Below, piece by piece: positions 3,596-59,040 of a DNA stretch of 64,000 bases. The notes under the pieces were generated by a model, which saw only the letters and a list, made by a program, of their open reading frames with translations, had not been told where the DNA came from and did no database searches. How positions within the stretch are numbered: position 1 is the stretch's first letter; the number at the start of each line of letters is the position of its first letter. This DNA comes from Trematomus loennbergii (Eukaryota; Chordata; Actinopteri; Perciformes; Nototheniidae). Position numbers and translations under genes: made by a program. The stretch is taken from assembly GCA_012861695.1 (NCBI GenBank), contig JAAOOA010000374.1:248001-312000 (forward strand), written 5' to 3'.

Positions 3596-3935
3596 TGTCA
3601 GTGCTTTCATGTCAATTCGGCGAACATAAACATAAATGATCATGGTGAAGATGATGATTAAATTAGGATTAAAATAGAGAACCGGGCTGCATTTCCTCCC
3701 GTCGGATGTGATATAAAAAACAAACCGATTATTTTTGTAGTTGTAAACTCACGTGGATTAAACCACATTTATTAGTGCTTTCATGTCAATTCGGCGAACA
3801 TATGATACATTAAATGATCGTGAGGATGATGATTAAAAATAGTTGTATGAGCCGGTCTGCATTTCCTGACGAAAAAACATAGCGATGGTTTTGTATTTAC
3901 GCCAACATGGATTAAACAACATTATTTGTTAAATA
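3596..3935 (+). repeat. Two-copy direct tandem repeat, about 176 bp per unit
   Basis: AGTGCTTTCATGTCAATTCG occurs at about 3599 and again at about 3775. Each copy is followed by GGCGAACAT, a GATGATGATTAAA motif, a CCGG.CTGCATTTCCT motif and a GGATTAAAC motif in the same order. The copies have diverged substantially, so the duplication is not recent. Function unknown. Confidence 0.75.
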
Positions 3936-18000: not shown

Positions 18001-21000
18001 CCTACTACTGTTGCAACAACAACAACAGCATCACCTACTACTGTTGCAACAACAACAGCAGCACCTACAACCACTGCTGCTCTGACAACGGTGCAACCTA
18101 CAACTACTGCTATACCTACAACTGCAGCCCCTACTACTGTTGCAACAACAACAGCATCACCTACTACTACTGTTGCAACAACAACAGCAGCACCTACAAC
18201 CACTGCTGCTCTGACAACGGTGCAACCTACAACTACTGCTATACCTACAACTGCAGCCCTTCTACTGTTGCAACAACAACTGCAGCCCTACTACTGTTGC
18301 AACAACAACAGCAGCACCTACATCTACTGCTGCACCTACAACTGCAGCCCCTACTACTGTTGCAACAACAGCAGCACCTACAACTACTGCTTCACCTACA
18401 ACTGCAGCCCCTACTACTGTTGCAACAACACAGCAGCAACTACAACTACTGCTGCTCCAACAACGGTGCCACCTACAACTACTGCTGCACCTACGACAGC
18501 TGCACCTACTACTGTTGCAACAACAACAGCAGCACCTACAACTACTGCTGCACCTACAACTGCAGCCCCTACTACTGTTGCAACAACAACAGCAGCAACT
18601 AACACTACTGCTGCACCAACGACAGCTGTACCTACTACTGTTGCAACAACAACAGCAGCACCTAAAACTACTGCTGCACTACAACTGCAGCCCCTACTAC
18701 TGTTGCAACAACAACAGCAGCACCTACACTACTGCTGCAACCTACAACTGCAGCCCCTACTACTGTTGCAACAACAACAGCAGCACCTACAACTACTGCT
18801 GACCTACGACAGCTGCACCTACTACTGTTGCAACAACAACAGCAGCACCTACAACTGTTGCAACAACAACAGCAGCACCTACAACTTCTGCTTCACCTAC
18901 AACTGCAGCCCCTACTACTGTTGCAACAACAACAGCAGCACCTACAACTGTTGCAACAACAACAGCAGCACCTACAACTTCTGCTTCACCTACAACTGCA
19001 GCCCCTACTACTGTTGCAACAACAACAGCAGCCCCCTTCTACTGTTGCAACAACAACAGCAGCACCTACAACTGTTGCAACGACAACAGCAGCACCTACA
19101 CTACTGCTGCACCTACAACTGCAGCCCCTACAACTGTTGCAACAACAACAGCAGCACCTACAACTACTGCTGCACCTACAACTGCAGCCCCTACTACTGT
19201 TGCAACAACAACAGCAGCCCCTTCTACTGTTGCAACAACAACAGCAGCACCTACAACTACTGCTGCACCTACAACTGCACCCCTACTACTGTTGCAACAA
19301 CAACAGCAGCCCCTTCTACTGTTGCAACAACAACAGCAGCACCTACAACTGTTGCAACGACAACAGCAGCACCTACAACTACTGCTGCACCTACAACTGC
19401 AGCCCCTACTACTGTTGCAACAACAACAGCAGCACCTACAACTACTGCTGCACCACAACTGCAGCCCCTACTAACTGTTGCAACAACAACAGCAGCACCT
19501 ACAACTACTGCTGCACCTACAACAGCAGCCCCTACTACTGTTGCAACAACAACAGCAGCACCTACAACTATTGCTGCACCTACGACAGCTGCACCTACTA
19601 CTGTTGCAACAACAACAGCAGCACCTACAACTGTTGCAACAACAACAGCAGCACCTACAACTACTGCTGCACCTACAACTGCAGCCCTACTACTGTTGCA
19701 ACAACAACAGCAGCACACTACAACCACTGCTGCTCCAACAACGGTGCCACCTACAACTTCTGCTTCACCTACAACTGCAGCCCCTACTACTGTTGCAACA
19801 ACAACAGCAGCCCCTTCTACTGTTGCAACAACAAATGCAGCACCTACAACTGTTGCAACGACACAGCAGCACCTACAACTACTGCTGCACCTACAACTGC
19901 AGCCCCTACAACTGTTGCAAACAACAACAGCAGCACCTACAACTACTGCTGCAACCTACAACTGCAGCCCTACTACTGTTGCAACAACAACAGCACACAC
20001 AACTACTGCTGCACCTACAACTGCAGCCCCTACTACTGTTGCAACAACAACAGCAGCACCTACAACTACTGCTGCACCTACAACTGCAGCCCCTACTACT
20101 GTTGCAACAAAACAGCAGCACCTACAACTCGCTGCACACAACAGCAGCCCCTACTACTGTTGCAACAACAACAGCAGCACCTACAACTGTTGCAACAACA
20201 ACAGCAGCACCTACAACTACTGCTGCACCTACAACACAGCCCCTACTACTGTTGCAACAACAACAGCAGCCCCTACTACTGTTGCAACAACAACAGCAGC
20301 ACCTACAACTACTGCTGCACCTACAACAGCAGCCCCTACTACTGCTGCAACAACAACAACAGCAGCACCTACAACTACTGCTGTACCTACAACTACTGCT
20401 GTTCCGACAACGGTGCAACCTACAACTACTGCTTCACCTACAACTGCAGCCCCTACTACTGTTGCAACAACAACAACAGCAGCACCTACAACTACTGCTG
20501 CACCTACAACAGCAGCCCCTACTACTGCTGCACCTAAAACTACTGCTGTTCCGACAACGGTGCAACCTACAACTACTGCTTCACCTACAACTGCAGCCCC
20601 TACTACTGTTGCAACAAACAACAGCAGCACCTACAACTACTGCTGTACCTACAACTACTGCTGTTCCGACAACGGTGCAACTACAACTACTGCTTCACCT
20701 ACAACTGCAGCCCATCCTACTGTTGCAACAACAACAGCACCTACAACTACTGCTGTACCTACAACTACTGCTGTTCCGACAATGGTGCAACCTACAACTA
20801 CTGCTTCACCTACAACTGCAGCACCTACTACTGTTGCAACAACCACACAGCAGCACCTACAACTACTGCTTCACCTACAACTGCAACCCTACTACTGTTG
20901 CAACAACAACAGCAGCACTACAACTACTGCTTCACCTTCAACTGGAGCCCTACTACAGTTGCACAACAACAGCTGCACCAACAACTGTAGCATCTACATC

Positions 21001-24000
21001 TGCTGCACCAACAACAGGAGCACCTACAACTTCTGCTCCTACAACAGTAGCAACAACTACTATCGCACCTACAACAGCTGCACCAACAACTGTTGCACCT
21101 ACAACAGCTGCACCAACAACTGTTGCACCTACAACTTCTGCTCCTACAACAGTAGCAACAACTACTATCGCACCTACAACAGCTGCACCAACAACTGTTG
21201 CACCTAGACAACAGCTGCACCAACAACTGTTGCACCTACAACTTCTGCTCCTACAACAGTAGCACAACTACTATCGCACCTATAACAGATGCTCCAACAA
21301 CATTAGCACCAACTACTGCTGCTCCAACAACGATGCAACCGACAACTTCTGCTGCACCTACGACAGCAGCAGCTACAACATCTGCACTTGCGACAGCCAC
21401 ACATCTACGACTGCTCCACCTACAACTACACCATCCGCAGCAACAACAAAACCTACAGCCCCTGAAACCACTTATATTCTCTCATCAGAATTTAAAGAAG
21501 TGGCTTTTTCACCTGCCCTCACTGACTCCAACACCGATGAATACAAAGCACTTGAAAGATCAGCTCTAAATGCGGTGAGAGCATTTCCAAAACATACATC
21601 TGTTATTGATTGCATAAGCAATTTGAAAAAGATGATTGAACAGAATGTGTTTTCCCAAAGAATACCTTTTTTTTTAAATAACAAGATAAATTCAGTTGAA
21701 CTGTTATAATTTAATTTAGGGAAAAATGTGCTTGAAATGTACTTATGGTCTTTGAATGTTGCTTTATTTTTGCAGTGTAACAATAGATACAGAAGCAAGT
21801 TTCCGAACACGTTTTCCCACTGCATTTTGAACAATTCAGGTAAATGAAAAATCAAAGTGTGCTTCTCTGATTGAATTCTATATGAAGATTGAGAACTTAA
21901 CATTGGTAACTTCCAATCGAGATGGAATCATAACCACCTATTTAAAAAGAAACAGGATCATCTATTTAATATAACACTTCTTCCTCTCTTTTCTATGATA
22001 CAGTCCTTAAATCCACCAAAAGACAACGAAACTCAAGCAACTGTGGGGATTGTGTTCCAAGGGACTACTGCCATTGCAGAGCTCCCACAGAATTATGTTG
22101 TTGCTCAAACCTTAGTAGAAGCTCTGAATAATTCCACCAATACTCCTAACCTGAGCATTAACCTGCTTCAGTCAAAGTATTAGGTAAGTTAACACATCAC
22201 AATGAATCGTCCTTTCTGATCAGTGAATTTAATTTGGTTAGTACTAACATATCCTTTTAAATATGATTTGTTTCACAGCAAGTCCAGTTCAAGATCCGAT
22301 TACGACTGCTCCACCTACACAACCCATCCGCAGCAACAACAACACCTGCAGCCCTGAACCCACTTATATTCTCTCAGCAGAATTTAAAGAAGTGGCTTTT
22401 TCACCTGCCCTCACTGACTCCAACAGCGATGAATACAAAGCACTTGAAACAGCAGCTCTAAATGCGGTGAGAGCATTTTCAAAATAACATCTGTTATTGA
22501 TTGCAGAAGCAATGTGAAAAAGATGATTGAACAGAATGTGTTTGACCAAAGAATAACTTTTTTAAATAAAAGATAAATTCAGTTGACCTGTTGTAATTTC
22601 ATTTACGGAAAAAATGTGCTTGAAATGTACTTATGGTCTTTGAATGTTGCTTTCTTTTCACAGTGTAACAAGAATACAGAAGCATGTTTCCAAACACGTT
22701 TTCCCACTGCATTTTGAAAAACTTCAGGTAAATGAAAAATCAAAGTGTGCTTCTCTGATTGAATTCTATATGAAGGTTGAGAACTTAACATTGGTAACTT
22801 CCAATCGAGATGGAATCATAACCACACTATTTAAAAAAGAAACAGGATCATCTAATATGTATAGTATAACACTTCTTCCTCTCTTTTCTATGATACAGTG
22901 CCTTAAATCCACCAAAAGACAACGAAACTCAAGCAACTGTGGGGATTGTGTTCCAAGGGACTACTGCCATTGCAGAGCTCCCACAGAATTATGTTGTTGC
23001 TCAAACCTTAGTAGAAGCTCTGAATAATTCCACCAATAGTCCTAATCTGAGCATTAACCTGCTTCAGTCAAAGTATTAGGTAAGTAAACACATCACAATG
23101 AATCGTCCTTTCTGATCAGTGAATTTAACATTTGGTTAGTACTAACATATCCTTTTAAACATGAATTTGTTTCACAGCAAGTCCAGTTCCAGATCCGATT
23201 ATGACTGCTCCACCTACAACAACTCCATCCGCAGCAACAACAACACCTGCAGCCCTGAACCCACTTATATTCTCTCAGCAGAATTTAAAGAAGTGGCTTT
23301 TTCCCTGCCCTCACTGACTCCAACAGCGATGAATACAAAGCACTTGAAACAGCAGCTCTAAATGCGGTGAGAGCATTTTCAAAATAAACATATGTTATTG
23401 ATTGCAGAAGCAATGTGAAAAAGATGATTGAACAGAATGTGTTTGCCCAAAGAATAACTTTTTTTAAAAAAAAGATAAATTCAGTTGACCTGTTGTAATT
23501 TCATTACGGAAAAATGTGCTTGAAATGTACTTATGGTCTTTGAATGTTGCTTTCTTTTCACAGTGTAACAATGAATACAGAAGCATGTTTCCAAAACACG
23601 TTTTCCCACTGCATTTTGAAAACTTCAGGTAAATGAAAAATCAAAGTGTGCTTCTCTGATTGAATTCTATATGAAGGGTTGAGAACTTAACATTGGTAAC
23701 TTCCAATCGTGATGGAATCATAACCAACTATTTAAAAAAAGAAACAGGATCATCTCATGTCATAGTATAACACTTCTTCCTCTCTTTTCTATGATACAGT
23801 GCCTTAAATCCACCAAAAGACAACGAAACTCAAGCAACTATGGGATTGTGTTCCATGGGACTACTGCCATTGCAGAACTCCCACAGAATTATGTTGTTGC
23901 TCAAACCTTAGTAGAAGCTCTGAATAATTCCACCAATAGTCCTAATCTGAGCATTAACCCTGCTTCAGTCAAAGTATTAGGTAAGTAACACATCACAATG

Positions 24001-31624: not shown

Positions 31625-32073
31625 TGTAAGGCAAGGCAAGTTTATTTATATAGCACCTTTCAACACAAGGCAATTCAAAGTGCTTTACAAAAAGGAAAGA
31701 CATTAAGAAAATGGCATTTAAAAACAGTCATTAAAAAGCAAAGATAAGGAGGTCAGAAATGTATTTTGGGCCCAAACCATTCAATGCTTATAAACCAGCA
31801 GCAGTATTTTGAAATCAATTATTTGACATACAGGAAGCCATTGTAAAGACTTCAGAACTGGAGTGATGTGATCCACTTTCTTAGTGTTAGTGAGACTCGA
31901 GCAGCGGCGTTCTGAATCAGCTGCAGCTTTCTAATAGATTTTTTAGTGAGACCTGTGAAGACACCATTACAGTAGTCGAGTCTACTGAAGATAAAAGCAT
32001 GGACAAGTTTTTCCAAATCCTGCTGTGACATTAGTCTTTTAATCCTAGATATATTCTTAAGGTGATAGTAGGC
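31625..32073 (-). mobile_element. LINE reverse-transcriptase C-terminal fragment, left half of an interrupted copy
   Basis: On the minus strand the sequence reads YYHLKNISRIKRLMSQQDLE, then KLVHAFIFSRLDYCNGVFTG and KSIRKLQLIQNAAARV. This is the well-known C-terminal part of a fish non-LTR reverse transcriptase, followed toward 31625 by its 3' UTR (AAGGCAAGTTTATTTATATA region). The coding sequence stops abruptly at 32073, where a palindromic element is inserted. It resumes on the far side at 45566. The last six bases, GTAGGC, are repeated there. Confidence 0.9.
32068..32073. repeat. Target-site duplication, left copy (GTAGGC)
   Basis: Identical to 45560-45565 on the other side of the 13.5-kb palindrome. 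A six-base duplication is the length typical of Polinton/Maverick integration. Confidence 0.9.
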
Positions 32074-32229
32074 AGTAGTGTTACCAATCCCGCTTCAATC
32101 TCATTAGTATGCATAAAAAAGGACAGGTCACACCTTCTAAGTCCCGCCCCCTAATTATGTTTATGACATCCCCCTTTGATATGCTAACGAGCCCTTTGAT
32201 CGAGGTGTTATCGCGTACAGGTGTGGACA

Positions 32230-32470
32230 TCCTCACCGGTAGCCCCCCCCCCCTCAGCCACCCCTCCCCCTCAATACAGGTGCTACATCCTCTCAGGTAG
32301 CCCCCCCCCTTCTCAGCCCCCACCCCGCTCGGCCCCCACCCCTCAACCCACCCCTCCTCCCCCTTTACAGCAGGTTTCACATCCGCCCTCTCAGCCCCCA
32401 CCTCTCTCAGCCCCCACCTACCGCAACCCACCCCCCTCCTCATCCCCCTCCTGTCCGGTCAGCAGGGCTG
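32230..32470 (+). repeat. C-rich subterminal block of the left arm (mirror at about 45165-45400)
   Basis: CCCCCCCCCCTCAGCC-type runs and repeated CTCAGCCCCCACC units. The complementary strand, which is the plus strand at 45165-45400, is a dense array of G-tracts able to form G-quadruplexes. A shorter relative lies at 33175-33235 and its mirror at 44390-44455. Confidence 0.85.
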
Positions 32471-33310
32471 TTACAGTTTAAATCTTACGGACAAAATTAG
32501 ATATGATTCGCTATTAAACAAACTAATTATAGTAGATTAATTAACTATTCAAACGTGTACAGTAATTTACAATAACAACGGGAATAATAAAACGGGGGCG
32601 CTCTCCCTCCTCTCATGACAACACGCCAGTATCATGCAGCTCGCGGGTCCAATAGTGAGTGACTCGATAGTAAAACTAAAAAACATAGTTAAACTAGTTT
32701 AGGTAGTTTGAGAGGTAATTAAAATAGCTGCGTGTTATCTGAAGAGTGTGTTTGTTCCGCTCAACGCATACAGAGATGCATGGCGAATAGTCCGCAGCAC
32801 GGTTCTCGTCAGCAGCAGCACAGCGTTCTCCCGTCACGTTACTAGCGTTTATGTCCATGCGCAATCAGCCCATACAGGATATCTTCTGTCGGTCAACACT
32901 ATTCTTGATGTCACATAAGTGATGCAAAGATACGGTATTGCGCTAAGGGTGGTATCATTCTGGGCCGGAGGATTTCCCTCCACACACACACGCACACACA
33001 AGTCTCTCTGGAGAGGTTAACAATAGTTTAAAGATCTTACTGACCATGGGGTATTTTTGGTTTTTTCTTTATGTTTAATTACATCACCCATTAATAAAAT
33101 AATCCTTATATGAAGTTATATGAGATTAGAAATAGCTGTAGGTTAGGAGGAAAGAGAAGATTTTTTTTTTATGTCGCCCCCACCACCTCCTCAGCCCCCA
33201 CCCCCTCTCAACCCCTCCTCCTCACCCCCTCCTGTCCGGTCAGCGGGGCCATTACAGTTTAAATCTTACGGACAAAATTAGATATGACTCGATATTAAAC
33301 AACTAATGGA
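32435..33310 (+). repeat. Subterminal direct repeat pair in the left arm
   Basis: CTCCTGTCCGGTCAGC, then ACAGTTTAAATCTTACGGAC and AAAATTAGATATGA, occurs at about 32445-32520 and again at about 33228-33303. The right arm has both copies inverted (about 44330-44395 and about 45112-45180). Another repeat pair (GCGCAATCA.CCCATACAGGA) lies at about 32860 and 34388. These could be protein-binding or replication sites of the element, but that is only a guess. Confidence 0.7.
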
Positions 33311-33809
33311 CAGTCTCCTGAGACATATGGTGGGGGACTCGTTTGGGGGGTGTACACATAAGTGATGCAACTTTAGATACACTTTTGAAGTAAGCACCAC
33401 TCTACAACTGGTAGAAAGTTAAGTACTTTGTATGGAATTGGGTTTTCTTTAGCTACAGTGTAGATATGTCAATGAAAAACATAGGTCACAGGCTCCTCCA
33501 ACAGTGCACATAAAACAGATAAAATACTGCAATTTGTGCGTAATTCTCTCACAAAGGAACTGTAAGATACACGTTTATGTATGGAAAAACTATATAACTT
33601 GGTAAAATATTCATTCATTTGTAGTAATTGAGTTTTCTTCAAGAATAAAACTCTAAATGGAGAGTTAGTGATTCGATGAAACAATGCAGTTTTGATAACT
33701 TGACTGACTAACATTACTTTTTTTAAATATATGTTTTTTAGATGCTTTACTTTGATTTCTTTCATATTATTTTAACACACATTACTTTTTTCATATTTTT
33801 CAACATACT

Positions 33810-33816
<7 letters not shown>

Positions 33817-33852
<36 letters not shown>
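33817..33852. repeat. (TA)n microsatellite in left arm (mirror 43781-43808)
   Basis: A pure TA run, longer in the left arm than in its mirror. This is an example of length difference between the arms. Confidence 0.9.
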
Positions 33853-33855
<3 letters not shown>

Positions 33856-33965
33856 TTTTCTCTCCATTATATTTTTGAATGTACCAAAATACAACATGCA
33901 ACTATTACATTATACAATATTATGGCTTTTTGCGATATTTTCAACACAATATACTTTCTTTTTTG

Positions 33966-34140
33966 TAGGGCTTCAGGATATTGGGCATGTCATGCGTAAA
34001 ACTGGTGTCATCTTTCCTGAAACTGATGTGCTGTCCGTTTACAAACAGTTATCTTTCTGCTTCTTCACCCTCTAAATTTTCCTCCCCGTCCTCTTCCTTC
34101 AGCCATCACAACAGCAATCAAGTCAGATCTGAGAAATTAA
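33966..34140 (+). CDS. Unrecognised exon-like frame in left arm (mirror 43489-43665, minus)
   Basis: After a pyrimidine run and TTTGTAG, the frame reads GLQDIGHVMRKTGVIFPETD, then VLSV, with a Ser/Pro-rich tail. The right-arm version stays open longer and ends KSDLRN. The left version is frameshifted near 34045. No family is recognised. The splice-acceptor-like context suggests a real exon of an element gene. Confidence 0.4.
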
Positions 34141-34627
34141 ACACCTCTTCCCAAAGCGTGACTTCCCTATTGAGGGAGGGGGGCAGTGGGGCCTAACCCT
34201 ATTTGGCCAAATATACTAACATGCAGAACATATGGTATGTTTGAAAAAAGACTACCATCTATCCAGTTTCAAGATGTCTTTAAGATGTGACTTTTCCCCG
34301 TAAAATCGTGACAAACTATTACTTATTAAATTTGACCTCATGCTGCTTGGTTGAAAATGATAGATGAGCATTTAGCAACAGATCAACGCGCAATCAACCC
34401 ATACAGGAGATCTCTTTCTACACATTATGTGTTATCACTATAATATCATGTCATTATTTAATGTTGTTTGTTTGTGTGTGTGTGTGTGTACAACGAAGTC
34501 TCTTTGAGAGGGAAAATTATAATTTAAAGATCTTAATACCCCCTTATTGTTTAATTACTTCACACAACTATTAAAGAATCCTATATGAAGTTACATGAGG
34601 CTACATTTTACGGGTGTGCTTCCTTAG

Positions 34628-34800
34628 ATGATGTAAATAGTTTAAGTGTCATGTTAGGGGGGCATTACGGACCTCAGGAGTCCGCCCTTGGAGGCTTGGA
34701 GAGCGGATAAAGAGAGGCGTATTTACTGGTGTTGAGCCCGGGATGATGTAAATAGTCCAAGTGCCATGTAACTCAGGAGTCCGCCCTTTGAGGCGTTGTT
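34628..34800 (+). repeat. Direct repeat with AGGAGTCCGCCCTT motif (mirror about 42830-43005)
   Basis: GATGATGTAAATAGT, then TCAGGAGTCCGCCCTT and GAGGC, occurs at about 34630-34700 and about 34742-34795. Both copies are mirrored in the right arm. Role unknown. Confidence 0.6.
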
Positions 34801-34922
34801 AACATTAATGTTTTTTGCTTCTGTTTTTGTTACTAAGATACTTTTTAGCCTTATGATAGGATGAACTTAAGCTGTAGTCAATAAAGACATGTTTAATAGA
34901 GTGTTGCTGTTAGAGAACATAC

Positions 34923-35461
34923 CTGCGCAGCACTCCACCACGTCTTGGTTTTGGCTTCATGGCCTTCACTGTCCTCTCCCTTTTGAGTTTTTTTCAAAGG
35001 CTAGGATACATTTTTCCAAATGATCACTTGTTACCTGGTGACAAAATATGGTTATATAACCTTAAAGAACTAACAAAAAATAATTAAGTATTTGCAATGC
35101 ATAAACATAGAAGATATCACTGTCATATTATGATCACTTATTGTAAGTAAGTTTAAGTAAACTAACACAAGTCAATATTATTCACCTGGGCATTAGTGGG
35201 CTTGAGGGTCTCAGGGAGCGTGGACAAAGTGACTTGTCTCTGTATTTGAGGATTCTCAGTGCAGGCACTAACAGGAAGCTGCTGTGCATTAGTGGAGAGT
35301 CCTCTGAAGGCAGCTGTTATTTCATTCACACACTCATCTGTTACCTGCTGACTCCTCATAGTAAGTCTATCAAAGTCAGCTGTTAAGTTGTCCATACCAT
35401 CGCTGGATAACAGGTAACTTTTGATTGACAGTCCAGCCATGGCAGCTGCCAACTCGTCCAT
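34923..35461 (-). CDS. Unrecognised two-exon frame in left arm (exons 35162-35461 and 34923-35034)
   Basis: This is the mirror copy of the plus-strand gene at 42162-42701. Exon 1 is identical at protein level to its mirror. Exon 2 is one base longer because of a 7-T against 6-A homopolymer difference. See the right-arm entry for content. Confidence 0.5.
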
Positions 35462-36439
35462 ATAATTCTTAAGAACGTGGTGACAATACTACAAAAAAGT
35501 GTATATATTAGGTCAGTTAACCTTGAAGAGCTAAACAGTTCAAGTGGTAAGTAACTAAGTATTTGCAATGAATAAACATAGAAATGATCACTGTCATATT
35601 ATATAATCACTTAATATGGAGATAAGTAAAACTGACACAGACAGTTTAAACTGCTTGTTAAAACGCTATTGCTTATTGTGTTTTCTCAGCACACTAACAT
35701 AAATTAAGGATGTATAATATAAAAAACTAGAAAACGATATAGTATTTTCAAGTCTTACTTTAGTATGGTAAAATTAAGAATAAGTCACATTAAAGTGTGT
35801 CATGATTTTCCGTAAAAAAGTCAAGTATAGTTTGTCAAAAGAATATGAAAAAATCATTTTGTAGAGTAGTATATTGAAAATCTCAGTGTTTAACTGAACA
35901 CACCTACATGTGATAACGCCTCGAACAAAGGGGTAATTAGCATACAAAGGGGGGTCACTAGCATCAGTGGGGGAAAGGTGCTATGGGAATGAACTTTGAG
36001 GAGGGGGAACTTCCAGCCCCTAAACATCTAGTTGGGCAATGTGAATTGAACGATAAACCGATCACTGTAAATGAAACGCGGAGAGAAGCAGCAGTGCAAA
36101 TCGCTAAGTCTATTACCTTGTATGCACTACGACATTAACTTGGTCAAATGTAATATGTCTTTCTGAAGATGTGGCGAATGGTGTGTTTTTCAATTAAACA
36201 ACCATAACAAAATGAAAATGTGTTTTATTTTTGCTTTCATATATAGTAATAGTATTAACTCCTCTGACTAGACTGTACTAAAATAAGACGTTTCACTGTT
36301 AAATAAAAATGGAAGTAGAAAATCGAGATAATGAGGAGGCTCGTTATGTATCCAGTAACTATGAACAGCAGTTTGAAAATGTTATTTAACCCTTTAACTC
36401 TAATTGACAAATCTAAAATAGCCTCTAGCTTATCTATAA

Positions 36440-36960
36440 ATTTGTGATTTTAACACTTATTCACTGACACAAGGCAGATTATGGCTTTTTCTCTTGCCAA
36501 GATACTTTTAGACACACTCTGAGGTATGCAAAACCTTAAAACTAGAAAATGAAGTACATTGTCTGATTAGATTTTTTCGTAAAGACTGTTTCTCTAAAAG
36601 GCAAGTTTGTGATTTTTAACACTTATTTACTGACACAAGGCAGATTTTTGACTTTTTTCTCTTTTCATGTGTTACCAAGATACTTTTTAGATACACTTTT
36701 TTGTATGCAACACTTAACAAAGGGGTATAATATGAAGTACTTTGTAAGGAATGGGGGTTTCTTTAATACCCCGTTGTAGAAAGTTAAGTACTTTTTCTGA
36801 ACAGATTTTCTTTAAGACTGTGACTCTTAAAGACACTCTGGGATTTTAGTAAGACAATCCAGTTTTATGGAAGTAACTAAAATTATTTTTGTTTTTTTCT
36901 CCTACAAAGATACTTATAGTTACACTTTAGTGGATGCAAAACTTAAAGTAAAATTAAAAA
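36440..36960 (+). repeat. Tandem repeat of about 165 bp in left arm (mirror about 40660-41190)
   Basis: TTTGTGATTTTAACACTTAT, TGACACAAGGCAGATT and a CCAAGATACTTTTAGA.ACAC block recur with a period of about 165 bp at 36440 and 36605. A third, more divergent unit overlaps the start of the 124-residue frame (ACAAAGATACTTATAGTTACAC). Each unit has a pyrimidine tract plus AAG, like a splice acceptor, so the repeat may be duplicated exon edges. Confidence 0.65.
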
Positions 36961-37241
36961 TGGGTAACTACTATGGAAAACAATCTGTATATATCTATCA
37001 GAATGCAGTCAATACCTGTTTAATAAGTGTGTTGTTGATGACGATTGAAAACAGAATGAGTAGTGATCCCCGTGTAAACAGAATGGTTGAAGTTTGTAAA
37101 CTAGAAGACATTTTGGATATCGTTCATTCTGGCAGTACTATTCCGGGTCATTGGGAAACGATTGTAAACGAAACATTTAAAGTGGTACTGGAATCTTCAT
37201 TTTCCGAAACATTCTGTAACATTAGTCAAGTCATAGTATAG
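36867..37241 (+). CDS. Unrecognised 124-residue ORF in left arm
   Basis: The frame opens MEVTKIIFVFFSYKD, and its body contains KMGNYYGKQSVYIYQNAVNT, LLMTIENRMSS and LDIVHSGSTIPGHWETIVNE, ending with ISQVIV. The predicted protein is identical to the mirror ORF at 40381-40755 although surrounding DNA shows indels. The first 12-15 codons lie in a pyrimidine-rich, intron-like stretch, so translation may really begin at an exon starting DTYSYTLVDAKL. It lies in the same orientation as the integrase fragment. No family is recognised; a Polinton accessory or structural protein is one possibility. Confidence 0.55.
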   Translation: MEVTKIIFVFFSYKDTYSYTLVDAKLKVKLKMGNYYGKQSVYIYQNAVNTCLISVLLMTIENRMSSDPRVNRMVEVCKLEDILDIVHSGSTIPGHWETIVNETFKVVLESSFSETFCNISQVIV

Positions 37242-37424
37242 TTTGACAAAAAGATCTTGAAAAAGTCATGACATTGTGTGTTGAAATGGTTTTGAATAAA
37301 CACATCAGTATTTAAAAAAGTAAAATTGTATCAAGTGCATCAGACAACTCAAATTACTCCATTTGAACCATATTATAAATAAGTATAGAATGGTCATAGT
37401 ATATAGCAGGGGTGTTTAATAGAT

Positions 37425-38636
37425 TTCTGTGTTCTGTGTTTTGTGTGTCAGTGTTGCAGTGTTTCAGTGTTTCAGTGTTTCAGTGTTCTGTGTTTCAGTG
37501 TTGCAGTGTTTCAGTGTTTGTGTGTCAGTGTGTCAGTGTTGCAGTGTTGTAGTGTTTCAGTGTTTTGTATGTCAGTGTTTCAGTGTTTCAGTGTTTATGT
37601 ATTTCAGTGTTTTCAGTGTTTTGTGTTTCAGTGTTTCAGTGTGTTTGTGTTTCAGTGTTTTCAGTGTTTTTGTGTTTCAGTGTTTCAGTGTGTTTGTGTT
37701 TCAGTGTTTCTGTGTTGCAGTGTTGCAGTGTTTCAGTGTTTTCAGTGTTTCTGTGTTTCTGTGTTGCAGTGTTGCAGTGTTTCAGTGTTTTCAGTGTTTT
37801 GTGTTTCAGTGTTTCAGTGTTTTTGTGTTTCAGTGTTTCAGTGTTTCTGTGTTTTTGTGTTGCAGTGTTTCAGTGTTTTCAGTGTTTTGTGTTTCAGTGT
37901 TTCAGTGTTTTTGTGTGTCAGTGTGTCAGTGTTTCAGTGTTGCAGTGTTTCAGTGTTTTCAGTGTTTGTGTTTCAGTGTGTCAGTGTTGCAGTGTTTCAG
38001 TGTTGCAGTGTTTCAGTGTTTTCAGTGTTTTGTGTTTCAGTGTTTCAGTGTGTCAGTGTTACAGTGTTTCAGTGTTTCAGTGTTCTGTGTTTCAGTGTTT
38101 TGGGTGTCAGTGTGTCAGTGTTGCAGTGTTTCAGTGTTTCAGTGTTCAGTGTTTCAGTGTTTATGTGTTTCAGTGTTTTCAGTGTTTTGTGTTTCAGTGT
38201 TTCAGTGTTTTTGGTGTTTCAGTGTTTCAGTGTTTTTGTGTTTCTGTGTTTCTGTGTTTTTGTGTGTCAGTGTTTTCAGTGTGTCAGTGTTTCAGTGTTG
38301 CAGTGTTTCAGTGTTTTCAGTGTTTTGTGTTTCAGTGTTTCAGTGTGTCAGTGTTGCAGTGTTTCAGTGTTGCAGTGTTTCAGTGTTTTCAGTGTTTTGT
38401 GTTTCAGTGTTTCAGTGTGTCAGTGTTGCAGTGTTTCAGTGTTTCAGTGTTTCAGTGTTCTGTGTTTCAGTGTTTTGGGTGTCAGTGTGTCAGTGTTGCA
38501 GTGTTTCAGTGTTTCAGTGTTTATGTGTTTCAGTGTTTTCAGTGTTTTGTGTTTCAGTGTTTCAGTGTTTTTGTGTTTCAGTGTTTCAGTGTTTCAGTGT
38601 TTTGTGTGTCAGAGTGTCAGTGTTTACAGCCTTTCT
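37425..38636 (+). repeat. 1.2-kb CAGTGTTT minisatellite, left arm
   Basis: The tract is built from short units (TTTCAGTG, TTGCAGTG, TTTTGTGTTTCAGTG). It contains no stop codon in any of the three forward frames, producing V/F/C/Q/S-rich phantom frames of about 380-417 codons. The mirrored tract at 38995-40196 differs in unit number. The repeat sits between the 124-residue ORF and the integrase fragment. Confidence 0.95.
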
Positions 38637-38690
38637 TTGCTCTGATCAATCCCACAGGGATCTCCCCCTGGAAGGAATATAGCAGGATGA

Positions 38691-38819
38691 GAGAAAAACA
38701 TTAAAAAACGTATCTTAGAAGTGGCTATAACATTTGATGCAATTCTAAAAGATAGTCAGATTCCTAAAAAGTTACAAACGGATGATGGAAAAGAATTATT
38801 TGTTTTTTGCAAGCTTTGA
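38691..38819 (+). pseudogene. Retroviral-type integrase core fragment at the palindrome centre
   Basis: A 42-codon open stretch bounded by stops reads RILEVAITFDAILK, then DSQIPKKLQTDDGKELF. The LQTD-x-GKE motif, preceded by a helix and IPKK, matches the second catalytic Asp region of rve-superfamily integrases as found in Polintons and LTR elements. The sequence then runs straight into the symmetry axis (about 38814), losing the rest of the core with the catalytic Glu. The mirror copy lies at 38826-38937 on the minus strand with a one-base homopolymer difference. It cannot encode an active enzyme. Confidence 0.65.
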
Positions 38820-38825
38820 AAAAAT
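38803..38825. other. Axis of the giant palindrome (23-bp spacer)
   Basis: GAATTATTTG on the left is answered by CAAATAATTC on the right. Between them lies TTTTTTGCAAGCTTTGAAAA, itself partly self-complementary around AAGCTT. A short asymmetric spacer is what remains after a hairpin-type or break-induced inversion event. Confidence 0.9.
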
Positions 38826-38937
38826 CAAATAATTCTTTTCCATCATCCGTTTGTAACTTTTTAGGAATCTGACTATCTTTTAGAATTGCATCAAATGTTA
38901 TAGCCACTTCTAAGATACGTTTTTTTAATGTTTTTCT
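38826..38937 (-). pseudogene. Mirror copy of the integrase fragment (right arm)
   Basis: Reverse complement of 38691-38802. It encodes the same LQTDDGKE stretch, with an extra base in the TTTTTTT run near 38920 that shifts the upstream frame. Confidence 0.65.
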
Positions 38938-38994
38938 CTCATCCTGCTATATTCCTTCCAGGGGGAGATCCCTGTGGGATTGATCAGAGCAAAG

Positions 38995-40196
38995 AAAGGC
39001 TGTAAACACTGACACTCTGACACACAAAACACAAAACACTGAAACACTGAAACACAAAAACACTGAAACACTGAAACACAAACACTGAAACACTGAACAC
39101 AAAACACTGAAACACTGAAACACTGCAACACTGACACACTGACACCCAAAACACTGAAACACAGAACACTGAAACACTGAAACACTGAAACACTGCAACA
39201 CTGACACACTGAAACACTGAAACACAAAACACTGAAAACACTGAAACACTGCAACACTGAAACACTGCAACACTGACACACTGAAACACTGAAACACAAA
39301 ACACTGAAAACACTGAAACACTGCAACACTGAAACACTGACACACTGAAAACACTGACACACAAAAACACAGAAACACAGAAACACAAAAACACTGAAAC
39401 ACTGAAACACCAAAAACACTGAAACACTGAAACACAAAACACTGAAAACACTGAAACACATAAACACTGAAACACTGAAACACTGAACACTGAAACACTG
39501 CAACACTGACACTGACACCAAAACACTGAAACACAGAACACTGAAACACTGAAACACTGAAACACTGTAACACTGACACACTGAAACACTGAAACACAAA
39601 ACACTGAAAACACTGAAACACTGCAACACTGAAACACTGCAACACTGACACACTGAAACACAAAACACTGAAAACACTGAAACACTGCAACACTGAAACA
39701 CTGACACACAAAACACTGAAACACTGAAACACAAAACACTGAAAACACTGAAACACTGCAACACAAAAACACAGAAACACTGAAACACTGAAACACAAAA
39801 AACACTGAAACACTGAAACACAAAACACTGAAAACACTGAAACACTGCAACACTGCAACACAGAAACACAGAAACACTGAAAACACTGAAACACTGCAAC
39901 ACTGCAACACAGAAACACTGAAACACAAACACACTGAAACACTGAAACACAAAAACACTGAAAACACTGAAACACAAACACACTGAAACACTGAAACACA
40001 AAACACTGAAAACACTGAAATACATAAACACTGAAACACTGAAACACTGACATACAAAACACTGAAACACTACAACACTGCAACACTGACACACTGACAC
40101 ACAAACACTGAAACACTGCAACACTGAAACACAGAACACTGAAACACTGAAACACTGAAACACTGCAACACTGACACACAAAACACAGAACACAGA
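38995..40196 (-). repeat. 1.2-kb CAGTGTTT minisatellite, right arm (inverted)
   Basis: Same repeat as 37425-38636, inverted, with several unit gains and losses. The phantom frames here are on the minus strand. Confidence 0.95.
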
Positions 40197-40380
40197 AATC
40201 TATTAAACACCCCTGCTATATACTATGACCATTCTATACTTATTTATAATATGGTTCAAATGGAGTAATTTGAGTTGTCTGATGCACTTGATACAATTTT
40301 ACTTTTTTAAATACTGATGTGTTTATTCAAAACCATTTCAACACACAATGTCATGACTTTTTCAAGATCTTTTTGTCAAA

Positions 40381-40755
40381 CTATACTATGACTTGACTAA
40401 TGTTACAGAATGTTTCGGAAAATGAAGATTCCAGTACCACTTTAAATGTTTCGTTTACAATCGTTTCCCAATGACCCGGAATAGTACTGCCAGAATGAAC
40501 GATATCCAAAATGTCTTCTAGTTTACAAACTTCAACCATTCTGTTTACACGGGGATCACTACTCATTCTGTTTTCAATCGTCATCAACAACACACTTATT
40601 AAACAGGTATTGACTGCATTCTGATAGATATATACAGATTGTTTTCCATAGTAGTTACCCATTTTTAATTTTACTTTAAGTTTTGCATCCACTAAAGTGT
40701 AACTATAAGTATCTTTGTAGGAGAAAAAAACAAAAATAATTTTAGTTACTTCCAT
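40381..40755 (-). CDS. Unrecognised 124-residue ORF in right arm
   Basis: Protein identical to 36867-37241. See that entry for motifs. Such conservation between arms points to recent formation, gene conversion between the arms, or selection on the product. Confidence 0.55.
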   Translation of the reverse strand: MEVTKIIFVFFSYKDTYSYTLVDAKLKVKLKMGNYYGKQSVYIYQNAVNTCLISVLLMTIENRMSSDPRVNRMVEVCKLEDILDIVHSGSTIPGHWETIVNETFKVVLESSFSETFCNISQVIV

Positions 40756-42161
40756 AAAACTGGATTGTCTTACTAAAATCCCAGAGTGTCTTTAAGAGTC
40801 ACAGTCTTAAAGAAAATCTGTTCAGAAAAAGTACTTAACTTTCTACAACGGGGTATTAAAGAAACCCCCATTCCTTACAAAGTACTTCATATTATACCCC
40901 TTTGTTAAGTGTTGCATACAAAAAAGTGTATCTAAAAAGTATCTTGGTAACACATGAAAAGAGAAAAAAGTCAAAAATCTGCCTTGTGTCAGTAAATAAG
41001 TGTTAAAAATCACAAACTTGCCTTTTAGAGAAACAGTCTTTACGAAAAAATCTAATCAGACAATGTACTTCATTTTCTAGTTTTAAGGTTTTGCATACCT
41101 CAGAGTGTGTCTAAAAGTATCTTGGCAAGAGAAAAAAGCCATAATCTGCCTTGTGTCAGTGAATAAGTGTTAAAATCACAAATTTATAGATAAGCTAGAG
41201 GCTATTTTAGATTTGTCAATTAGAGTTAAAGGGTTAAATAACATTTTCAAACTGCTGTTCATAGTTACTGGATACATAACGAGCCTCCTCATTATCTCGA
41301 TTTTCTACTTCCATTTTTATTTAACAGTGAAACGTCTTATTTTAGTACAGTCTAGTCAGAGGAGTTAATACTATTACTATATATGAAAGCAAAAATAAAA
41401 CACATTTTCATTTTGTTATGGTTGTTTAATTGAAAAACACACCATTCGCCACATCTTCAGAAAGACATATTACATTTGACCAAGTTAATGTCGTAGTGCA
41501 TACAAGGTAATAGACTTAGCGATTTGCACTGCTGCTTCTCTCCGCGTTTCATTTACAGTGATCGGTTTATCGTTCAATTCACATTGCCCAACTAGATGTT
41601 TAGGGGCTGGAAGTTCCCCCTCCTCAAAGTTCATTCCCATAGCACCTTTCCCCCACTGATGCTAGTGACCCCCCTTTGTATGCTAATTACCCCTTTGTTC
41701 GAGGCGTTATCACATGTAGGTGTGTTCAGTTAAACACTGAGATTTTCAATATACTACTCTACAAAATGATTTTTTCATATTCTTTTGACAAACTATACTT
41801 GACTTTTTTACGGAAAATCATGACACACTTTAATGTGACTTATTCTTAATTTTACCATACTAAAGTAAGACTTGAAAATACTATATCGTTTTCTAGTTTT
41901 TTATATTATACATCCTTAATTTATGTTAGTGTGCTGAGAAAACACAATAAGCAATAGCGTTTTAACAAGCAGTTTAAACTGTCTGTGTCAGTTTTACTTA
42001 TCTCCATATTAAGTGATTATATAATATGACAGTGATCATTTCTATGTTTATTCATTGCAAATACTTAGTTACTTACCACTTGAACTGTTTAGCTCTTCAA
42101 GGTTAACTGACCTAATATATACACTTTTTTGTAGTATTGTCACCACGTTCTTAAGAATTAT

Positions 42162-42701
42162 ATGGACGAGTTGGCAGCTGCCATGGCTGGACTGTCAATC
42201 AAAAGTTACCTGTTATCCAGCGATGGTATGGACAACTTAACAGCTGACTTTGATAGACTTACTATGAGGAGTCAGCAGGTAACAGATGAGTGTGTGAATG
42301 AAATAACAGCTGCCTTCAGAGGACTCTCCACTAATGCACAGCAGCTTCCTGTTAGTGCCTGCACTGAGAATCCTCAAATACAGAGACAAGTCACTTTGTC
42401 CACGCTCCCTGAGACCCTCAAGCCCACTAATGCCCAGGTGAATAATATTGACTTGTGTTAGTTTTACTTAAACTTACTTACAATAAGTGATCATAATATG
42501 ACAGTGATATCTTCTATGTTTATGCATTGCAAATACTTAATTATTTTTTGTTAGTTCTTTAAGGTTATATAACCATATGTTTGTCACCAGGTAACAAGTG
42601 ATCATTTGGAAAAATGTATCCTAGCCTTTGAAAAAACTCAAAAGGGAGAGGACAGTGAAGGCCATGAAGCCAAAACCAAGACGTGGTGGAGTGCTGCGCA
42701 G
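42162..42701 (+). CDS. Unrecognised two-exon frame in right arm (exons 42162-42436 and 42591-42701)
   Basis: Exon 1 opens MDELAAAMAGLSIKSYLLSS, continues MDNLTADFDRLTMRSQQVTD and ECVNEITAAFRGLSTNA, and ends PTNAQ before a GTGAAT donor. Exon 2, after TTGTCACCAG, is VTSDHLEKCILAFEKTQKG, then EDSEGHEAKTKTWWSAAQ, followed by GTATGT. Both junctions are phase 0. The introns around each exon share sequence (GACAGTGAT..CTTCTATGTTTAT, GCAAATACTTA), suggesting duplicated exons. It is helical and acidic with no recognised family. Further exons are not identified. Confidence 0.5.
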
Positions 42702-43771
42702 GTATGTTCTCTAACAGCAACACTCTATTAAACATGTCTTTATTGACTACAGCTTAAGTTCATCCTATCATAAGGCTAAAAAGTATCTTAGTAACAAAAA
42801 CAGAAGCAAAAAACATTAATGTTAACAACGCCTCAAAGGGCGGACTCCTGAGTTCCATGGCACTTGGACTATTTACATCATCCCGGGCTCAACACCAGTA
42901 AATACGCCTCTCTTTATCCGCTCTCCAAGCCTCCAAGGGCGGACTCCTGAGGTCCGTAATGCCCCCCTAACATGACACTTAAACTATTTACATCATCTAA
43001 GGAAGCACACCCGTAAAATGTAGCCTCATGTAACTTCATATAGGGATTCTTTAATAGTTGTGTGAAGTAATTAAACAATAAGGGGGTATTAAGATCTTTA
43101 AATTATAATTTTCCCTCTCAAAGAGACTTCGTTGTACACACACACACACAAACAAAACAACATTAAATAATGACATGATATTATAGTGATAACACATAAT
43201 GTGTAGAAAAGAGATCTCCTGTATGGGTTGATTGCGCGTTGATCTGTTGCTAAATGCTCATCTATCATTTTCAACCAAGCAGCATGAGGTCAAATTTAAT
43301 AAGTAATAGTTTGTCACGATTTTACGGGGAAAAAGTCACATCTTAAAGACAGCTTGAACTGGATAGATGGTTAGTCTTTTTTCAAACATACCATATGTTC
43401 TGCATGTTAGTATATTTGGCCAAATAGGGTTAGGCCCCACTGCCCCCCTCCCTCAATAGGGAAGTCACGCTTTGGGAAGAGGTGTTTAATTTCTCAGATC
43501 TGACTTGATTGCTGTTGTGATGGCTGAAGGAAGAGGGACGGGGGAGGAAAATTCAGAGGGTGAAGAAGCAGAAAGATAACTTGTTTGTAAAACGGACAGC
43601 ACATCAGTTTCAGGAAAGATGACACCAGTTTTACGCATGACATGCCCAATATCCTGAAGCCCTACAAAAAAGAAAGTATATTGTGTTGAAAATATCGCAA
43701 AAAGCCATAATATTGTATAATGTAATAGTTGCATGTTGTATTTTGGTACATTCAAAAATATAATGGAGAGA

Positions 43772-43810
<39 letters not shown>

Positions 43811-45559
43811 AGTATGTTGAAAAATATGAAAAAAGTAATGTTGTGTTAAAATAATATGAAAGAAATCAAAAGTAAAGCATCTAAAAAACATATATTTAAA
43901 AAAAGTAATGTTAGTCAAGTCAAGTTATCAAAACTGCATTGTTTCATCGAATCACTAACTCTCCATTTAGAGTTTTATTCTTGAAGAAAACTCAATTCAC
44001 TACAAATGAATGAATATTTTACCAAGTTATATAGTTTTCCATACATAAACGTGTATCTTACAGTTCCTTTGTGAGAGAATTACGCACAAATTGCAGTATT
44101 TTATCTGTTTTATGTGCACTGTTGGAGGAGCCTGTGACCTATGTTTTTCATTGACATATCTACACTGTAGCTAAAGAAACCAATTCCATACAAAGTACTT
44201 AACTTTCTACCAGTTGTAGAGTGGTGCTTACTTCAAAAGTGTATCTAAAGTTGCATCACTTATGTGTACACCCCCAAACGAGTCCCCCACCATATGTCTC
44301 AGGAGACTGTCCATTAGTTTGTTTAATATCGAGTCATATCTAATTTTGTCCGTAAGATTTAAACTGTAATGGCCCCGCTGACCGGACAGGAGGGGGATGA
44401 GGAGGAGGGGGTTGAGAGGGGGTGGGGGCTGAGGAGGTGGTGGGGGCGACATAAAAAAAAAATCTTCTCTTTCCTCCTAACCTACAGCTATTTCTAATCT
44501 CATATAACTTCATATAAGGATTATTTTATTAATGGGTGATGTAATTAAACATAAAGAAAAAACCAAAAATACCCCATGGTCAGTAAGATCTTAAACTATT
44601 GTTAACCTCTCCAGAGAGACTGTGTGTGCGTGTGTGTGTGGAGGGAAATCTCTCCGGCCCAGAATGATACCACCCTTTAGCGCAATACCGTATCATTTGC
44701 ATCACTTATGTGACATACAAGAATAGTGTGTGACCGACAGAAGATATCCTGTATGGGCTGATTGCGCATGGACATAAACGCTAGTAACGTGACGGGAGAG
44801 ACGCTGTGCTGCTGCTGACGGGAGAACCGGTGCTGCGGACTATTCGCCATGCATCTCTGTATGCGTTGAGCGGAACAAAACACACTCTTCAGATATCACA
44901 CGCAGCTATTTTAATTACCTCTCAAACTACCTAAACTAGTTATAACTATGTTTTTAGTTTTACTATCGAGTCACTCACTATTGGACCCGCGAGCTGCATG
45001 ATACTGGCGTGTTGTCATGAGAGGAGGGAGAGCGCCCCGTTTTATTATTCCCGTGTTATTGTAAATTACTGTACACGTTTGAATAGTTAATTAATCTACT
45101 ATAATTAGTTTGTTAATAGCGAATCATATCTAATTTTGTCCGTAAGATTTAAACTGTAACAGCCCTGCTGACCGGACAGGAGGGGGATGAGGAGGGGGGT
45201 GGGTTGCGGTAGGTGGGGGCTGAGAGAGGTGGGGGCTGAGAGGGCGGATGTGAAACCTGCTGTAAGGGGGGGAGGGGTGGGTTGAGAGGGTGGGGGCCGA
45301 GCGGGTGGGGGCTGAGAAGGGGGGGGGCTACCTGAGAGGATGTAGCACCTGTATGTGAGGGGGAGGGGGGTGGGCTGAGGGGGGTGGGGGCTACCGGTGA
45401 GGATGTCACACCTGTACGCGATACACCTCGATCAAAGGGGCTCGTTAGCATATCAAAGGGAGGATGTCATAAACATAATTAGGGGGCGGGACTTAGAAGG
45501 TGTGACCTGTCACTTTTTTATGCATACTAATGAGATTGAAGCGGGATTGTAACACTACT

Positions 45560-45565
45560 GTAGGC
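45560..45565. repeat. Target-site duplication, right copy (GTAGGC)
   Basis: Matches 32068-32073. Confidence 0.9.
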
Positions 45566-57887: not shown

Positions 57888-59040
57888 AGCACACATTTGA
57901 AATCGACGATCGGGCTCCATATATGGTTAAATTAAAATCAGTAGGCGAGGCTGTAATTGCGCCAGCTGTTACTCTCATGAGCGAGGCAGAAAATAATAGA
58001 TGTACATCTATGACTGCTGTAGCCACAACTGCCTCACCTACACCTGCTTCACCTACAACTGCAGCACCTACAACTGCAGCACCCACAACTGCTGCACCTA
58101 CAACTGCTGCACCTACAACTGCTTCACCTACAACTGCAGCACTTACAACTGCTGCACCTATGACTGCTTCACCTACCACTGCTGCACCCACAACTGCAGC
58201 CCCTACAACTAGTGCACCTACAACTGCAGCATATACGACTGCTGCACCCACAACTGCTTCACCTACAACTGCAGCACCTACAACTGCTGCACCCACAACT
58301 GCAGCACCCAAAACTGCAGCACCTACAACTGCTTCACTCACAACTGCTGCCCCTATGATTTATGCACATACAACAGCTGCCCCTACAACTGCTGCACCCT
58401 CAACTGCAGCACCTACAACTTCAGCACCCACAACTGCTGCCCCTACAACTGCAAAACCTACGACTGCTGCACTGACAACTGCTGCACCCACAACTGCAGC
58501 AGCTACAACTGCAGCCCCTACAACTAGTGCATCTACGACTGCTTCACCCACGACTGCTTCACCCACGACTGCTTCACCCACAACTGCTGCACCTTCAACT
58601 GCAGCACCTACAACTGCTGCACCCTCAACTGCAGCACCTACTACTGCAGCACCTACTACTGCTTCACCCACAACTTCAGCACCTACTACTGCTTCACCCC
58701 AACTTCAGCACCCACAACTGCTGCACCTACAACTGCAGCACCTCCAACTGCTGCACCTACAACTGCAGCACCTCCCAACTGCTGTATCCACAACTGCAAC
58801 ATCTACGACTGCTGCACCCACAACTGCTTCGCCTACGACTGCAGCACCTACGACTGCTTCGCCTACAACTGCAGCACCTACGACTGCTTCACCTACAACT
58901 GCAGCACCCACAACTGATGCACCTACGACTGCTGCACCCACAACTGCAGCACCTACGACTGCTGCACTTACAACTGCAGCACCTACGACTGCTGCACTTA
59001 CAACTGCAGCACCTACATCTGCTGCACCCACAACTTATTG
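57888..59040 (+). CDS. Second mucin gene, PTS repeat exon
   Basis: After ATCATTTTAG the frame begins KHTFEIDDRAPYMV (first codon split with the upstream exon), then KLKSVGEAVIAPAVTLMSEA, then about 340 residues of APTTA/SPTTA five-residue repeats. Unlike the 32-residue unit of the first gene, this array has a simple APTTA period. One frameshift pair lies near 58695-58775. It can end at a GTGAAT donor (59041) or at the TGA just after it. Confidence 0.7.

Follow-up and report, generated by a model that had tools for sequence, protein, structure and literature searches.

Adeno-associated virus (AAV) is a parvovirus whose replication is hairpin-primed, and the pGKL1 derivatives F1 and F2 of yeast are palindromic linear plasmids. 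According to a paper on vertebrate Mavericks (Polintons), these elements mostly end in (AGT)2//(ACT)2 or (AG)3//(CT)3, have a 6-bp target duplication and carry terminal repeats of 46-1,447 bp, with a mean of 402 bp (PMC8097293). In two further papers, expansion of Polinton inverted repeats is mentioned as reported (PMC3573991), and a snap-back mechanism and panhandle intermediates are mentioned for protein-primed fungal plasmids (PMC1864894). Here we analyse a 64,000-nucleotide stretch of the Trematomus loennbergii assembly (contig JAAOOA010000374.1, C374:248001-312000; hereinafter the window), which contains a 13.5-kb palindrome with Maverick ends. Our reading, to which we assign a probability of roughly 70%, is that the palindrome is a non-autonomous Maverick that was founded once, is moved by helpers and has its arms made symmetric again from one insertion to the next, probably by way of a hairpin formed during replication.

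The palindrome consists of a left arm (32074-38802, + strand) and a right arm that is its mirror (38826-45559, − strand), each of 6.74 kb, on either side of a 23-nt centre, TTTTTTGCAAGCTTTGAAAAAAT (38803-38825, unstranded). Its termini are AGTAGTGTTAC...GTAACACTACT, i.e. AGTAGT...ACTACT, and the target-site duplication GTAGGC, read from the sequence, lies outside both of them (32068-32073 and 45560-45565, unstranded). When 32074-38816 is aligned globally with the reverse complement of 38817-45559, 6662 columns match, 23 mismatch and 116 are gaps, the differences forming 77 events. Single-base insertions or deletions (indels) make up 49 of the 77, as sorted by hand from the alignment list; the outer 3.1 kb, up to 35159, accounts for 61 events, and the stretch 35160-37819 for a single one. 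Many of these indels are probably sequence errors, because other comparisons within the assembly give 0 substitutions yet more than 10 gaps. The left and right flanks of the element, 3 kb per side, do not match each other. The 13.5-kb palindrome is thus confirmed as real, and the two mirrored arms meeting at a 23-bp spacer, the Polinton-like ends and the GTAGGC duplication are all as an earlier note on this DNA, made from its letters alone, had described them. A chance palindrome is ruled out by its sheer length and by the recurrence of this centre at 39 further loci, and a one-off palindrome by at least 40 head-to-head copies in the assembly.

These copies were found by searching the assembly (1.208 Gb in 3566 contigs) with the 176 bases adjoining the centre, the axis piece, and scoring 40 of 315 candidates. 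The query has 80 matches at 40 places, and all 40 scored places are head-to-head pairs, although in the C3531 copy the second half of the pair is 54 bp. The family therefore has at least 40 members, and this search may have missed a parent that has diverged. Termini were read for ten copies besides the window: C66, C28a, C28b, C14, C6, C12, C23, C27, C713 and C399. AGTAGT starts both ends in all ten, and the ends are of two types, AGTAGTGTTACCAATCCC and, in C12 and C23, AGTAGTAGTACATATCCC. Exact, informative and mutually different 6-bp duplications flank seven of the ten: GACATA (C66), TACAAT (C28a), TGTAAC (C28b), AATACT (C14), CTCAGT (C6), CAAACC (C12) and TGTGAT (C23). The 300 bases outside the ends of the 11 copies show no match between different copies, and the own left flank of a copy matches its right flank in three of the ten (C399 over 1.28 kb, C66 over 72 bp and C23 over 114 bp). 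A mobile palindrome family, with target duplications marking its insertions, is therefore well supported. The earlier note had proposed that a fold-back formed and then moved as a unit, and would have taken the lack of any other genomic copy sharing the ends as a refutation; copies that share the ends but differ in their duplications do exist. The fold-back that moved as a unit is supported, though as an amplified family in place of a single event. An assembly fold-back artefact affecting the whole family is very unlikely, since flanks of different copies are unrelated and the duplications mostly match. C12 has a 475-bp deletion on one side only. In C14 (L039/L040) the arms are unequal: judged from end positions, the left reaches about 8.2 kb from the axis and the right 6.6 kb, an excess of about 1.5 kb that is likely due to an insertion within one arm.

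The copies share one fold-back point. When the window centre was compared with the 39 others, all 40 were variants of a single 32-nt founder loop, AACAAGATTTTTGAAGCCTTGCTGAAGAAAAC. Sorted by hand, 13 are exact, 16 slightly changed and 11 eroded and more symmetric; C3 was counted as exact by eye, owing to a stem deletion. The centre is a perfect palindrome in C399, a suspect copy. The window belongs to the eroded class, so that its 23-bp spacer, correct as a length, is not the original state. Single variants at the tip are weak evidence because hairpin tips are difficult to sequence; the common founder loop is unaffected by this. The loop has 0 matches in IMG/VR.

As the earlier note had noticed, an integrase-like fragment lies at the axis. 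It is about 34 codons long and truncated at its 5' side (IKKRILEVAITFDAILKDSQIPKKLQTDDGKELF; 38700-38802, + strand; mirrored at about 38826-38928), and the window element has no intact integrase. At locus L014, arm and loop form one reading frame, ...KKRILEVAITFDAILKDSQIPKKLQTDDGKELFNKIFEALLKKTN, of Maverick integrase. The integrase of six PolB-bearing loci (C86, C1570, C1374, C2, C34 and C893) aligns across the loop, with 91 of 115 nt and 70% of 43 amino acids identical. Five of these loci come from 15 regions placed by offset from PolB, where misses are uninformative, and C86 is the sixth. Because integrase homology runs across the loop, the fold-back point lies within integrase coding sequence. 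The cut at the 5' side of the axis piece suggests that the founder was already rearranged.

The element was then compared with full Mavericks of the same genome. A search with PF03175 (DNA_pol_B_2) gave at least 122 matches in the assembly, with 91 of 116 candidates scored, and none of the 122 matches listed lies on C374. PolB-bearing Mavericks are numerous, and several have equal scores and long open frames, which suggests recent spread. One of the Mavericks, in C86 (24986781-25001977; duplication TGCTTG), carries both PolB and integrase; its terminal repeat is 98.8% identical over 164 bp, with a further block of 251 bp at 90.8%. The first 161 bp of the window arm (32074-32234, + strand) are the terminal repeat common to PolB-bearing Mavericks, 95-96% identical to the C86 and C17 ends. 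The outer end as a whole (32074-33354, + strand), within a variable, mosaic zone, is homologous to the PolB-side end of C86, at 94.3% over arm 1-1194 and 98.9% over 1194-1281. Its mirror occupies 44266-45559 (− strand; inner border approximate). In other copies the match is closer still: relative to the C86 end, C14_R shows 0 substitutions in 1228 aligned columns with 18 gap openings, and C27_L shows 0 in 1226 with 15; the ends of the remaining copies are 85-98% identical to it where aligned. The window element therefore shares with vertebrate Mavericks the AGTAGT...ACTACT termini, the 6-bp duplication and the terminal repeat of a PolB/integrase element. The arm is a composite, with a PolB-side end outside and an integrase piece, from the other gene module, at the axis. 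Of the earlier claim that the element is one mirrored half of a Polinton, the mirror stands; a plain Maverick half it is not, given this combination and the roughly 5.3 kb between the two that have no long match in the Maverick pieces compared.

Arm interiors and arm ends differ in how they vary among copies. In the interiors (about arm 2.9-5.0 kb), all ten left-arm pairs of five copies (C66, C28b, C27, C6 and the window) have 0 mismatches in 1381-1575 nt. The overlap is shorter, 286-1177 nt with 0-1 mismatch, for pairs with C12, C23 and C28a; the left piece of C14 is mostly minisatellite and has up to 7 mismatches in 916 nt. Because the interiors are nearly identical, the copies are young. 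The outer 1.4 kb differs block-wise, with distinct blocks at 300-450 (C66), 450-600 (C28a), 600-750 (C399 and C28b) and 750-1050 (C27, C14 and C6). Wherever the two arms of a copy both align, both carry its block, except in C713. With distance counted as substitutions plus indels of at least 10 bp, the right arm nearest to a left arm belongs to its own copy in 9 of 11 cases, a result equalled by 0 of 20000 label shuffles. A tree of the outer ends pairs the arms of a copy as sisters for 7 of 11 copies, five of these pairs being fully supported; it does not resolve C14, C6 and C28b, which are too similar, and the C713 arms are not sisters. A 239-bp insertion at arm 3944 has two carriers with coverage of each arm at that point, C12 and C28a, and in both copies it occurs on the left and on the right arm. 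Changes in the arms are thus mirrored. A single fold-back as the origin, as the earlier note implied, agrees with the shared loop; by itself it leaves the end mosaics mirrored on both arms unexplained.

We infer helper Mavericks from the shared ends and the absence of enzymes from the element, and a hairpin intermediate from the mirrored changes. The family would have begun during linear, terminal-protein-primed replication of a rearranged Maverick, when a 3' end lying within the integrase gene turned back on itself, possibly at an AAATA/TATTT microhomology. Extension of the folded end to the terminus would give a palindrome with two good ends. With PolB, terminal protein and integrase supplied in trans by helper Mavericks, it could have spread as a satellite, and its ends could have been swapped with those of helpers via recombination or template switching. 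The unchanged arm would then be rewritten from the changed arm. A displaced single strand, self-complementary over 6.7 kb, would fold into a hairpin and be copied from the end round the loop; both arms would thereby derive from one, the loop would be kept and every change would be mirrored. Occasionally the loop would be trimmed towards a perfect palindrome. That the satellite replicates as a self-folding linear genome, in which a long hairpin in each cycle copies arm changes, captured helper ends included, before integration, is a tentative part of this proposal, with somewhat less than an even chance of being right.

Several observations weigh against this reading. The middle of the arm, about 5.3 kb, has no long match in the Maverick pieces compared besides a remnant of the terminal repeat. 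A non-palindromic parent with this integrase allele was not found, the closest integrases seen being 79% identical; the full-length parent continuing the integrase gene that the earlier note had suggested looking for is likewise absent among the 40 of 315 candidates scored, and that scoring used the axis piece itself as query. Among the ten copies with termini read, the C27 duplication matches over 5 bp only, and C713 has no target duplication and mismatched arms of different end types, probably because two half copies are joined there. C399 has mirrored flanks and a self-complementary duplication, TACGTA, which was left uncounted; C399 and C713 were both retained in the arm counts of 11 copies. 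The C399 flanks (L031/L032) are mirrored at 99% over their 1.28 kb, with a second element end 1.5 kb outside, and we suspect a misassembly or a larger palindrome. The two exceptions to the nearest-arm result are C713 and C14, whose left arm is equally near the C6 right arm. Substitution counts within copies vary by aligner: with one, ten copies have 1-19 and C713 has 92; with the other, nine copies have 1-32, while C12 has 106 and C713 has 104. C12 accordingly has 14 or 106 and the window 19 or 32. The minisatellite of seven copies is no more alike within than between copies, a result that is expected if all interiors are young and that gives no support. The rewriting of one arm from the other could be chromosomal gene conversion, and the element is known here from genome sequence alone, not from activity, packaging or an extrachromosomal form.

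Gene conversion between arms has been proposed for sex-chromosome palindromes. Ordinary conversion after insertion, acting on the descendants of a single fold-back founder, could keep arms alike without hairpin replication before insertion, and it agrees with arms that are alike within copies but patchily so, as in the window with its 61 of 77 differences in the outer 3.1 kb. Identical interiors, however, leave little time since the spread, yet end blocks are mirrored in 9 of 11 copies, so that conversion would need to be very fast and complete; we regard it as unlikely. Mirrored ends and a common loop would need no arm rewriting at all if non-palindromic parents with exchangeable ends had folded back repeatedly at the same integrase microhomology hot spot, each copy being mirrored from birth. 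Such recurrence demands an identical junction every time, and all 40 scored places are palindromic with no single-copy parent (275 further candidates are unscored), which makes it rather improbable.

Two other explanations have less to commend them than the helper-moved palindrome founded once. Long identical repeats assemble poorly, and C713 and C399 resemble assembly faults, so an ordinary Maverick with long terminal repeats could look like this if its single-copy interior had been lost, or had collapsed during assembly. This is barely plausible, because the centre is an in-frame integrase stretch common to 40 loci and the same-ended C86 Maverick has a short terminal repeat (164 bp at 98.8% and 251 bp at 90.8%); for intact vertebrate elements, PMC8097293 gives terminal repeats of 46-1,447 bp. 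The inverted repeats are very long and internally repetitive, as in a Foldback/Galileo-type transposon with terminal inverted repeats, but an origin outside the Mavericks is scarcely credible in view of the Maverick termini, the terminal repeat, the 6-bp duplication and the integrase fragment.

The remaining features of the arm are few. An 8-bp minisatellite of about 151 units, TTTCAGTG, occupies 37424-38625 (+ strand; mirrored at 39004-40198), and the open reading frame (ORF) list has no arm ORF longer than 124 amino acids outside it; no search with capsid models was made. The 124-amino-acid ORF, P0001 (36867-37241, + strand; mirrored at 40381-40755, − strand), has no match in Pfam and four relatives in ENA/JGI-derived data; P0001 ends where three of the four run on with a further part. 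An exon-like open stretch, MDELAAAM... (35171-35461, − strand; mirrored at about 42162-42452, + strand), also has four database relatives, two of which are hypothetical proteins: one, of Dissostichus eleginoides, is 70% identical and covers 71% of the query, and the other, of Chaenocephalus aceratus, is 95% identical and covers 33%. These two relatives make a notothenioid host probable. The exon-like protein has no match among PDB sequences. A Pfam search of arm pieces gave none above cut-off and a single weak match to DUF3425. The predicted structure of the P0002 family had a mean predicted local distance difference test (pLDDT) score of 43 and was left unused. The internal, inverted remnant of the Maverick terminal repeat lies at 35899-35973 (− strand; arm 3826-3900; mirrored at about 41651-41725) and is 80-89% identical over 54-75 bp.

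Elsewhere in the window, 12300-21400, 57923-59041 and 60198-63160 contain long codon arrays of Thr/Ala/Pro type, mucin-like, with ORFs of up to 1116 amino acids; the ORF at 57923 reads TTAAPTTAAP.... Three of the mucin-like ORFs scanned against Pfam gave no match at cut-off. Region 59775-63222 is a tandem array of two to three units, each about 1.43 kb long, and the first two are identical over much of their length.

No palindromic Maverick family is described in the literature searched, which consisted of titles and the starts of abstracts, with subscription papers largely outside it and Repbase excluded. The palindrome keeps its ends, has no whole enzyme gene and has arms that change in step, and is thereby a record of genome copying, recombination and parasitism. 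If the satellite does replicate as a self-folding linear genome, the mirrored mosaic ends would be a fossil trace of Mavericks replicating outside the chromosome as protein-primed linear DNA, and the palindrome would be a natural defective-interfering genome turned transposon family. The palindrome also offers a route from a defective viral genome to a mobile family, and it predicts linear DNA with Maverick ends outside the chromosomes, in hairpin or palindromic form. Palindromes this large also call for caution about assembly errors.

Like vertebrate Mavericks as described in PMC8097293, the element has (AGT)2//(ACT)2 ends, a 6-bp duplication, a terminal inverted repeat and retroviral-like integrase sequence; unlike them, it is a palindrome without PolB or a whole integrase, its 6.74-kb arms are nearly all mirror repeat, and its 40 copies share one fold-back point. 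It has long mirrored ends in common with the expanded-repeat Polintons mentioned in PMC3573991, from which it differs in being mirrored throughout and in having a single intragenic fold-back as its centre. Galileo/Foldback elements likewise consist in large part of inverted repeats that are long and internally repetitive; in the same paper Galileo belongs to the P superfamily, with a different enzyme, whereas the palindrome has Maverick ends. The likeness to protein-primed linear plasmids, such as the invertron pAL2-1 (PMC1864894), lies in the terminal protein, and the difference in that they are mitochondrial or cytoplasmic plasmids and form no transposon family. The palindromic pGKL1 derivatives F1 and F2 belong to the same comparison. 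The element would work in the manner of the snapback subgenomes of AAV, which are self-complementary half genomes that keep the terminal origin and depend on helper functions, and which PMC8235507 does not describe as an integrated family with target duplications; the likeness is a parallel rather than kinship.

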